Shown here one piece after another: positions 57,458 to 59,515 of a stretch of 64,000 nucleotides of DNA. Where the stretch lies: positions 434,001 to 498,000 of the forward strand of contig NZ_JAQNDK010000005.1 in assembly GCF_028368935.1 (NCBI RefSeq). Direction: 5' to 3'. The position numbers were made by a program, and so were the translations under genes. The notes beneath the pieces were generated by a model. That model saw only the letters and a list, made by a program, of their open reading frames with translations, did not search any database and had not been told where the DNA came from. Numbering within the stretch: the stretch's first letter is position 1; the number at the start of each line of letters is the position of its first letter. This DNA comes from Sorangium aterium (GTDB lineage: Bacteria > Myxococcota_A > Polyangia > Polyangiales > Polyangiaceae).

Positions 57458-59515
57458 TCAGGGCAGCACGAGCTTGATCGAGAACACGTAGTCGACGTTG
57501 ACGGGCCTGCCCTGGTAGGTGACCGGCTGGTAGCGGCTCGCCGCGAGGGCGGCGAGGACCGCCTCGTTCATGTGGGGCACACCCCTGACGATCCGGCAGC
57601 CGGTGAGGCTGCCGGCCGTGGTCACCACGCACTTCGCGAGGACCGTCCCCTCGACGCGCGCCTGCCGCGCCTCCCGCGTGTAGACCACGGCGGGCGCCGC
57701 GAGCGGCACGGGGCGGGTCATCCCTTCCTGGAAACGCAGGATCTCGGGGGCGGCCAGCGCAGGCGCTGCAGGCGGCAAAGCGGCTGCGTTCGGCTCGACG
57801 CCGGGCTCGGCCGCGCCAGTCGCGGCGCCGGCGGGCTCGGCTGCCGCGGCGGCAGCGTCGGGCTCGGCTGCGCTGGCCGTGGCAGCGCCGGACTCGGCCG
57901 CCGCCGCGGCGGTGGCGCCGGCCTCGACGGGCGCCGGCTCCGTCGGTGGCGCTGGCTCAGGCAGCGCGCCTGCCGCCAGCCGCGACCCCGGCGGCGGGGC
58001 CGCCGCGAGGGCCGCGGCGAACGCCTCGAGCTCCGCCGAGGCGGTCTCGTCCTCCGGGCGCACGACCAGCACGGCCGGCCTGTAGCCGGGCTTGGTCAGC
58101 TGGAGCCGGTACTCGGCCCTGCTCCCGGCGCCCTGCAGCACGAGCCGGCACGGCGTCGCCAGGCAGACCTCCGTCCCGCGGTCGGAGACACGGGCGCCGG
58201 GCGGGGCGCTCTCGATCCTCACGATCCTGAACTCGGCCACCGCCTCCCTGCCCGCCGACGCCTCGACGGGCACGGCGATCGGCACAGGGGAGGCCTGGAC
58301 GGCGGCAGGGGCGCGCGCGGCGTCCGGCCCGCGCCAGCCGAGCGCCAGCACCAGGCCCCCGCCGACGATCGCCGCCACGAGCGCGACCAGGTAGAGGGAC
58401 ACGGTCGAGTGGCGGGGCGGAGCGACGGAGCCGCTGAAGGTCGCGGGAGCCTGCGGCGGAGAGAGCGAGTCGAGCGGCGCAGCGCGAAGCGACACGAGCG
58501 GCTCGCTGGGAGGGGGCGAGAAGGCCGAGATGCGGAGCTCCGAGATCGACGACGCGGAGGGCAGCGCGCCCCGGGGTTGCGCCAGAGACAGGCGGTCCGG
58601 GGCCGAGGCTCGCGAGGCGTCCATCGGCTCGCCCGCCGCGCTCTTCAGCGCGGTGAGACACTCCCTCATCGACTGGAAGCGCCTGTCAGGGCTCTTCTCG
58701 AGACACCGCATCACGATGGCCGTCATCGCCGGCGACACGAGCGCGCCCTGCGCGTGATCGGAGAGCGGCGGCGGCGGCTCGCCGACGTGCGCCATGAGCG
58801 TCGCCGAGGGCACCTTCCTGTCGAACGGCACCCTGCCGCAGAGCATCTCGTAGAGCAGGACGCCGAGCGCATAGATGTCCGCGCGCGGCGAGAGCTCGTG
58901 GCCCATCGCCTGCTCCGGAGCGGTGTACTTGGGAGAGCCGATGAACAGGCCCCTCTGGGTCAGCTCGTCCAGCTGCCGCCCCGAGACGTCCTTGACCAGG
59001 CCGAAGTCGAGCACCTTGACGAAGTCCTTCTCGTCCTCCTGGTCGACGAGGAGCACATTGCCCGGCTTGAGATCCCGGTGCACGAGGCCGAGGCCGTGCG
59101 CCTCGGCGAGCGCGCGGCAGATCTGTCGCGCGATCCGGCCCGCGCGCGCCTCCGGGAGCGCGCCCTCGTCGTGGAGCACGCGGTGGAGCGTGCGCCCGGC
59201 GATATACTCCATGGCGATAAAGTAGAGCCCGCGCGGATCGTCCCGGCCGTAATCGAAGACCGTGACGGAGTTCGGGTGGGTGAGCCTCGCCGCGGTCGCA
59301 GCCTCGCGCGAAAAGCGCCGAAAGAACTCCGGATCTTGCTCGAGGCGCTCATCGGGGAGGAGCAGCTTGAGGGCGCAGATCCGACCCAGCGCGAACTGCT
59401 CTGCCCTGTAGACCCTGCCCATCCCCCCTCGCGCGATGAGCGAGATGATCCGATATCGATCGGCGATCGTCGCGCCGATGAGGGGGTCTTGACCGTTGCT
59501 CCTGGCCGCACCCAT
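57458..59515 (-). CDS. Serine/threonine kinase fused to a TonB C-terminal domain
   Basis: 685 aa from ATG 59515, 7 nt after TATAGT; the Arg/Pro-rich frame further upstream is rejected. Kinase at 15-290: ARGGMGRVY, CALKLL with Lys50, HRDLKPGN with Asp148, DFG Asp170, YTAPEQA. Membrane helix at 371-393. A PEGA-like module (about 430-490; SAPPGARVSDRGTEVCLATPCRLVL) and an Ala/Pro/Glu linker (500-590) lead to a TonB C-terminal domain (about 603-685): VYTREARQARVEGTVLAKCVVTTAGSLTGCRIVRGVPHMNEAVLAAL and YQGRPVNVDYVFSIKL. The kinase is cytosolic and the TonB end periplasmic, which would couple phosphorylation to an outer-membrane partner. Confidence 0.92.
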   Translation of the reverse strand: MGAARSNGQDPLIGATIADRYRIISLIARGGMGRVYRAEQFALGRICALKLLLPDERLEQDPEFFRRFSREAATAARLTHPNSVTVFDYGRDDPRGLYFIAMEYIAGRTLHRVLHDEGALPEARAGRIARQICRALAEAHGLGLVHRDLKPGNVLLVDQEDEKDFVKVLDFGLVKDVSGRQLDELTQRGLFIGSPKYTAPEQAMGHELSPRADIYALGVLLYEMLCGRVPFDRKVPSATLMAHVGEPPPPLSDHAQGALVSPAMTAIVMRCLEKSPDRRFQSMRECLTALKSAAGEPMDASRASAPDRLSLAQPRGALPSASSISELRISAFSPPPSEPLVSLRAAPLDSLSPPQAPATFSGSVAPPRHSTVSLYLVALVAAIVGGGLVLALGWRGPDAARAPAAVQASPVPIAVPVEASAGREAVAEFRIVRIESAPPGARVSDRGTEVCLATPCRLVLQGAGSRAEYRLQLTKPGYRPAVLVVRPEDETASAELEAFAAALAAAPPPGSRLAAGALPEPAPPTEPAPVEAGATAAAAAESGAATASAAEPDAAAAAAEPAGAATGAAEPGVEPNAAALPPAAPALAAPEILRFQEGMTRPVPLAAPAVVYTREARQARVEGTVLAKCVVTTAGSLTGCRIVRGVPHMNEAVLAALAASRYQPVTYQGRPVNVDYVFSIKLVLP

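Follow-up and report, generated by a model that had tools for sequence, protein, structure and literature searches.

The window, that is, the whole stretch of 64,000 nucleotides of Sorangium aterium DNA that was analysed, contains a gene for a Ser/Thr protein kinase that ends in a TonB C-terminal domain (TonB_C), and this kinase-TonB_C architecture is real, conserved and recurrent. The mechanism that its anatomy predicts is attractive: the protein would act as a trans-envelope receptor kinase with one membrane pass, and its TonB_C would engage a partner in the outer membrane (or cell wall) with no drive from ExbB/ExbD and so alter kinase output; we give this reading a little less than an even chance. 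The gene belongs to a genome of 13.47 Mb and is coded on the minus strand from 59515 to 57458, with a start codon consistent with the aligned orthologs in L016, L019 and L020. It consists of the following parts.

57458..59515, minus strand: whole gene, kinase - membrane helix - PEGA - linker - TonB_C (685 aa; ATG at 59515, stop codon at 57458-57460)
58661..59455, minus strand: Ser/Thr protein kinase domain (residues 21-285; Pfam PF00069, E 8.2e-44)
58337..58405, minus strand: predicted membrane helix VSLYLVALVAAIVGGGLVLALGW (residues ~371-393, without histidine; hydropathy maximum 2.57)
58034..58225, minus strand: PEGA domain with a CLATPC motif inside (residues 431-494; Pfam PF08308, E 6e-6, 26.5 bits, cut-off 20.8)
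57731..58015, minus strand: low-complexity Ala/Pro/Glu linker, gap-rich (residues 501-595, ~95 residues)
57476..57691, minus strand: TonB C-terminal domain (residues 609-680, modelled domain ~594-685; PF03544, E 3.8e-12)

The preliminary description had read positions 57458-59515 as a complete Hanks kinase joined through a membrane helix, a PEGA-like module and an Ala/Pro/Glu linker to a TonB C-terminal domain, and had proposed a domain search for Pkinase, PEGA and TonB_C. Both the position and each part of this architecture were borne out, with the coding strand corrected to minus. All three domains scored above their Pfam cut-offs, TonB_C with 46.9 bits against a cut-off of 24.6, and the match fell at residues 609-680 of a tail that had been expected to occupy residues 603-685; the NCBIfam model tonB_Cterm (TIGR01352) also matched the tail, with 35.8 bits against a cut-off of 27.1. 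The catalytic motifs K50, HRD (146-148) and DFG (170-172) are intact. The single membrane helix was assigned with hydropathy as the sole measure. The AlphaFold model of the full-length protein had a mean pLDDT of 33.8, and therefore no statement made here rests on the full-length structure.

The tail modelled alone with three Sorangium orthologs (four close sequences; AlphaFold) reached a mean pLDDT of 88.9. The first 16 Foldseek rows for this model were TonB or TonB-homologue (FusB) domains, the top match being 6i97_D, TonB bound to FoxA (E 9.1e-5, TMq 0.77). VIA-align gave Z 11.2 over 87 residues (rmsd 2.1) against this FoxA co-crystal chain and Z 9.8 against 2gsk_B, TonB bound to BtuB, with TolA domains scoring below TonB domains at Z about 5 to 7. 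When a profile of eleven related tails was compared with PDB sequences, 13 of the 14 matches at E <=1 were TonB and one was a ribosomal protein (E 0.49). By sequence and by model, the tail of the window kinase is a TonB C-terminal domain; its contact with the TonB boxes of outer-membrane transporters is predicted, as structural alignment alone does not demonstrate binding. Two cysteines of the TonB_C are invariant within the tail's subclass. Among 58 TonB_C domains collected, 48 scored >85 bits and every one of these (48/48) had at least two cysteines, and the cysteines were absent or single in the 23 fusions outside Polyangiaceae.

In agreement with the preliminary description, which had noted no ExbB/ExbD nearby, ExbB, ExbD and TonB-dependent-receptor seeds gave zero matches among all window ORFs of at least 60 aa. 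The neighbouring genes with a domain assignment or candidate were as follows.

56869..57399, minus strand: candidate thioredoxin-like lipoprotein, downstream gene (Thioredoxin_7, 23.6 bits, below the cut-off of 27; lipobox-like start read by eye)
56126..56770, minus strand: AMIN-like domain protein, next downstream (PF24837, E 8.3e-34; syntenic in L016, L017, L019 and L020)
62332..63951, plus strand: divergent neighbour with AgmX/PglI C-terminal domain (NF033768, 80.9 bits, cut-off 40)

The thioredoxin-like gene also lies downstream of the kinase in L016, L017 and L020, and is missing together with the TonB_C in So ceGT47 (L019), where the genes beyond it are still in place. That the two TonB_C cysteines form a disulphide, or that this neighbour reduces it, is only an idea. 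The divergent neighbour is syntenic in 5/5 Sorangium loci; it scored 151.9 bits against the GltG model NF033760, far under the cut-off of 650, and this partial similarity suggests that its product may be another trans-envelope type. Two genes lie between it and the kinase (59785-60687 and 60734-61720), with no Pfam or NCBIfam match, and tblastn found neither in Sorangium loci L016-L020. The window holds two more kinase-domain frames on the minus strand, 38571-40421 and 43898-45610, both without TonB_C by profile.

The genes around the kinase are cell-envelope genes (AMIN-like, M74 endopeptidase with LysM, GltG-like), which would suit the main rival explanation. Here the TonB_C would be a generic periplasmic anchor or dimerisation module that holds on to peptidoglycan, another TonB_C or an envelope scaffold, positioning or clustering the kinase and reading no transporter. 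TonB-like proteins with non-transport roles have been reported; according to passages of PMC8262864, SjdR of Anabaena shapes septal peptidoglycan, without a clear TonB domain. Against anchoring, the tail most resembles, in its fold, TonB domains with TonB boxes as their ligands, and we consider this explanation unlikely.

A kinase ortholog was present in all six genomes (6/6) of the genus. The tail is in frame with the kinase in the window genome, in two other Sorangium loci (L016, L020) and in L131, which belongs to another genus. Because kinase and TonB_C share one frame in L016, L020 and L131, the fusion is no assembly artefact of the window genome, and with its recurrence elsewhere the possibility of a one-off was likewise rejected. 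So0157-2 (L017) has its kinase and TonB_C in separate frames, the L018 ortholog is cut by a contig end, and the frame of So ceGT47, of 539 residues, stops after PEGA and has no TonB_C. Loss is the simpler reading of the latter case, since the tail is there in L131 and the L019 kinase falls among those of Sorangium. With the tail absent from So ceGT47 and out of frame in So0157-2, it is therefore dispensable in at least one strain. The fusion is also rare among the window kinase's own relatives, as only 2 of the 79 nearest kinases found by contig search had TonB_C. In the same 6/6 genomes there is a sister kinase with 63% identity over the kinase domain; it has a helix and a stretch resembling PEGA, and its C-terminus is free of TonB_C.

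These observations of loss, frame disruption and a tailless sister would be expected if the fusion were near-neutral domain shuffling of low functional importance. Kinases are also very numerous in the genus, as parts of PMC3696898 report 317 and 508 in two Sorangium strains, and among hundreds of kinases some odd fusions are to be expected, which, like the dispensable tail, weighs against the docking reading. Selection on the tail argues the other way: compared with L016, L020 and L131, dN/dS was 0.24, 0.35 and 0.40 for the TonB_C and 0.31, 0.33 and 0.42 for the kinase domain, with linker identities of 52, 50 and 25%. The TonB_C is under purifying selection, with a constraint like that of the kinase. 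As the fusion also recurs in separate kinase lineages, described below, we regard near-neutral shuffling as very improbable.

The taxonomic range of the fusion, a check proposed in the preliminary description, extends over Polyangiaceae and the phylum of a Candidatus Aminicenantes genome, which we take to be Acidobacteriota, with 30 distinct kinase-TonB_C proteins in a set that was drawn from loci other than L022-L094 and L017, required TonB_C <=30 residues from the end, and had identical TonB_C domains merged. Other, unrelated kinases of the family end in this tail subclass too, in L132 (G091) and in L133 and L134 (G034), all Pfam-confirmed, and two further kinase-TonB_C loci (L135, L136) are cut by contig ends. 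In 31 Polyangiaceae genomes searched with PF03544, no kinase was found beside TonB_C among the matches listed (14 long frames, short loci), the family already described aside. Two Candidatus Aminicenantes genomes have two fusions each, one of them kinase-like without the usual HRD/DFG and the other of the type receiver-kinase-helix-proline linker-TonB_C. The fusion occurred in at least 11 of 40 sampled genomes of this phylum; the matches listed for this sample included 33 new frames of at least 575 aa, 19 of them (19/33) with a kinase by a custom profile, and the Pfam-confirmed fusions of this second phylum are L236, L237, L240 and L241 only. HRD and DFG were both present in 20 of the 30 fused kinases and plain HRD or DFG was missing in the other 10, some of which may therefore lack catalytic activity. 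L236, L237 and L284 are TonB_C-ending kinase-like proteins without the usual HRD/DFG, possibly pseudokinases.

Kinase trees set the fused groups apart. The kinase-domain tree required 8 changes of the fused label, of which at least 5 were forced by starred branches, and on this sequence evidence the fusion arose in more than one kinase lineage. These are quick trees without bootstrap and with long-branch warnings, built on a sample picked by similarity to the window kinase, to which the second phylum contributes few unfused kinases; for the later tree, long-branch rows with any of nine name prefixes were removed. The TonB_C tree, with 92 columns and few resolved forks, is compatible with a single fusion origin in Polyangiaceae.

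The fused kinases differ from TonB proteins in the membrane helix. Passages of PMC12215075 describe E. coli TonB meeting ExbB via Ser16 and His20 of its helix, and report the helix histidine as essential for Ton and Tol activity. The helix histidine was present in 0/30 fused kinases vs 28/39 solo TonB-like proteins (150-480 aa) with an exbB neighbour, and the strict Ser-x3-His motif in 0/30 vs 22/39. This comparison kept 60 of the 69 solo rows, those with a helix score of at least 1.4, and the contig-truncated kinases L112 (same gene as L135) and L136, as well as the sigma-linked proteins described below, were placed among the solo rows. The sequences are related, and therefore the Fisher p of 1.8e-10 is no true probability. 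From the missing histidine we infer that the fused kinases are probably not energised by ExbBD; a caution is that the helix histidine is also missing in 11 of the 39 exbB-linked solo proteins (and Ser-x3-His in 17/39). Those 11 proteins would leave some room for a kinase energised by ExbB/ExbD like a TonB, with the force passed on to the kinase domain. Since both motifs are found in none of the fusions, a histidine reported as essential among them, and exb genes were not found in the window or in the 0 to 5 kb of flank around the fusions, we regard such an energised kinase as extremely improbable. Adjacency to exbB/exbD is not strict for TonB, and some TonB genes stand alone. An ordinary TonB was rejected as an identity for the window protein on the helix motif and the missing exb genes.

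Helix-to-TonB_C spacing was 146-228 residues (median 174.5) in the fusions vs 81-156 residues (median 126) in solo exbB-linked proteins, and the spacing of the fusions is long enough to reach the outer membrane. A spacing of at least 146 residues in all fusions exceeds what a local clamp would need, a second point against anchoring. Seeds from Polyangiaceae for ExbB, ExbD and receptors matched in the flanks (0 to 5 kb) of 0/30 fusions; the neighbourhood therefore suggests no partner, and the lack of an adjoining receptor gene is in keeping with an anchor.

The closest solo TonB_C of the same genome is 58% identical to the kinase tail; the genes after it encode ExbB, ExbD and another ExbD-like protein, and it adjoins a divergent gene for a receptor (CarboxypepD_reg, plug, barrel), which is presumably Oar-like. 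That the nearest solo relative adjoins a receptor argues against an anchor, and with 58% identity to this operon TonB, shared receptors are plausible. The same identity might mean that the TonB system is itself regulated by the kinase or in competition with it, the kinase's TonB_C occupying TonB boxes or pairing with the operon TonB, so that the kinase controls transport and does no sensing. A kinase would be unnecessary for mere competition, and most fusions outside Polyangiaceae have an ordinary TonB_C without the two cysteines; we think this explanation improbable.

Relatives of the tail at E <=1e-8 were found in 38 of 98 sampled genomes of the family. At E <=1e-18, with part of the candidates per genome scored, the tail subclass was found in at least 26 of 183 genomes of the order, 25 of those in the same family, and in at least 8 of 377 genomes of the phylum sample, 7 of those in the same family. 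In three loci, an ECF sigma gene is immediately followed by the gene of a membrane protein whose C-terminus is a TonB_C of the same subclass.

L144, 1487-3150: ECF sigma factor and single-pass TonB_C protein, gene ends overlapping
L142, 3760-5237: ECF sigma factor and single-pass TonB_C protein, gene ends overlapping
L139, 3170-4827: ECF sigma factor and single-pass TonB_C protein, gene ends overlapping

The sigma factors of L144, L142 and L139 scored 76.3, 77.5 and 65.2 bits against TIGR02937 (cut-off 42.9), and the L144 TonB_C protein is similar to anti-sigma factors at a score under the cut-off (NF052375, 30.6 bits against 100). The next gene after the sigma-linked TonB_C protein in L142 and L139 encodes a canonical TonB that has the helix histidine. 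Many frames of ~800-1000 aa in Polyangiaceae have TonB_C near the N-terminus (L207, L215-L218, L221, L222, L227, L252 and others); these are perhaps receptors with their own TonB_C, in line with the MxcH model.

The reading that we favour, a receptor kinase docking passively through its tail, would work as follows. The Hanks-type kinase would lie in the cytoplasm and, by the topology we infer, the PEGA domain just beyond the helix, near the inner membrane; the long disordered linker would carry the TonB_C outward across the periplasm as the sensing or docking end. Its most likely partner would be a TonB-dependent transporter, bound at the TonB box, which is exposed on ligand binding according to passages of PMC6699858. 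The TonB_C would read the state of the transporter passively, not driven by ExbB/ExbD, and docking, tethering or clustering would switch kinase output, so that the signal would run from outside to inside. A wider proposal, which we regard as rather unlikely in this full form, is that TonB_C is a re-usable receptor-reading module, separately acquired, non-energised and on a long linker. Through it, both Hanks kinases (Polyangiaceae, Aminicenantes/Acidobacteriota phylum) and the putative anti-sigma proteins beside ECF sigma genes (Polyangiaceae) would directly sense ligand-holding TonB-dependent transporters from the periplasm and convert this in a single step to phosphorylation or transcription, with no transporter signalling domain needed.

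To our knowledge, the extracellular ligand of most bacterial receptor kinases is not known. The TonB_C tail names a testable class of partners, the outer-membrane transporters, and a rule, to reach the outer membrane without ExbBD. If the docking reading is true, kinase signalling would be coupled directly to nutrient-receptor occupancy, and an unrecognised group of sensors would lie among the numerous proteins with no annotation beyond 'TonB family protein'. Unrelated TonB_C-tailed kinases in other bacteria hint at a little-noticed route for sensing the cell's outer surface. In the accessible literature we found no description of kinases ending in TonB_C, although the 2008 myxobacterial kinome (Perez et al.) may list such a domain. 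The TonB passages of PMC3986340 deal with separate genes only, those of PMC3174227 contain no kinase-TonB fusion, and no TonB passages were found in the accessible parts of PMC11032199, PMC1262709 and PMC3696898.

The window protein can be compared with several known systems. It is like the TonB energy transducer of E. coli and Pseudomonas in its C-terminal domain, single helix and long low-complexity periplasmic linker, and differs in the large cytoplasmic kinase before the helix, the inserted PEGA, and the absence of Ser-x3-His from the helix and of exbB/exbD from the window. A TonB_C on a cytoplasm-linked protein is not a new idea, because GltG and GltJ (AgmX) of the Myxococcus gliding motor, as described in passages of PMC5349195, are likewise modular, single-pass motility proteins with a cytoplasmic link and a TonB-like C-terminus; those proteins have no kinase. 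The models NF033760 and NF033768 were absent among the 23 NCBIfam families that the window kinase matched at E <=1, and identity with GltG/AgmX was rejected as neither model matched. PASTA-type kinases (PknB/Stk1) share the Hanks kinase, one helix and an extracytoplasmic sensor region, and PknB/Stk1 (NF033483) was the best NCBIfam match of the window kinase, over residues 14-303. Its 300.1 bits lie below the cut-off of 450, on which identity with a PASTA kinase was rejected; Pfam gave no match to PASTA repeats, and the sensor region is PASTA in those kinases and PEGA plus TonB_C in the window protein. The kinase-TM-PEGA proteins of myxobacteria (L157-L162; Archangium L021) share kinase, helix and PEGA, but stop after PEGA without TonB_C. 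The BlaR1/M56 peptidases L238 and L242 are signalling-type membrane proteins that also end in a C-terminal TonB_C, with a peptidase instead of a kinase. No FecR match was found in the window kinase by Pfam, no receptor gene in the window and, among the neighbours with a domain assignment, no sigma or receptor gene. In FecR/FoxR-type signalling, passages of PMC6699858 likewise describe an inner-membrane protein that reports the occupancy of an outer-membrane transporter. There the regulator reads the signalling domain of the transporter and controls a sigma factor, whereas in the mechanism proposed here the TonB_C would do the reading and the kinase would be the output.
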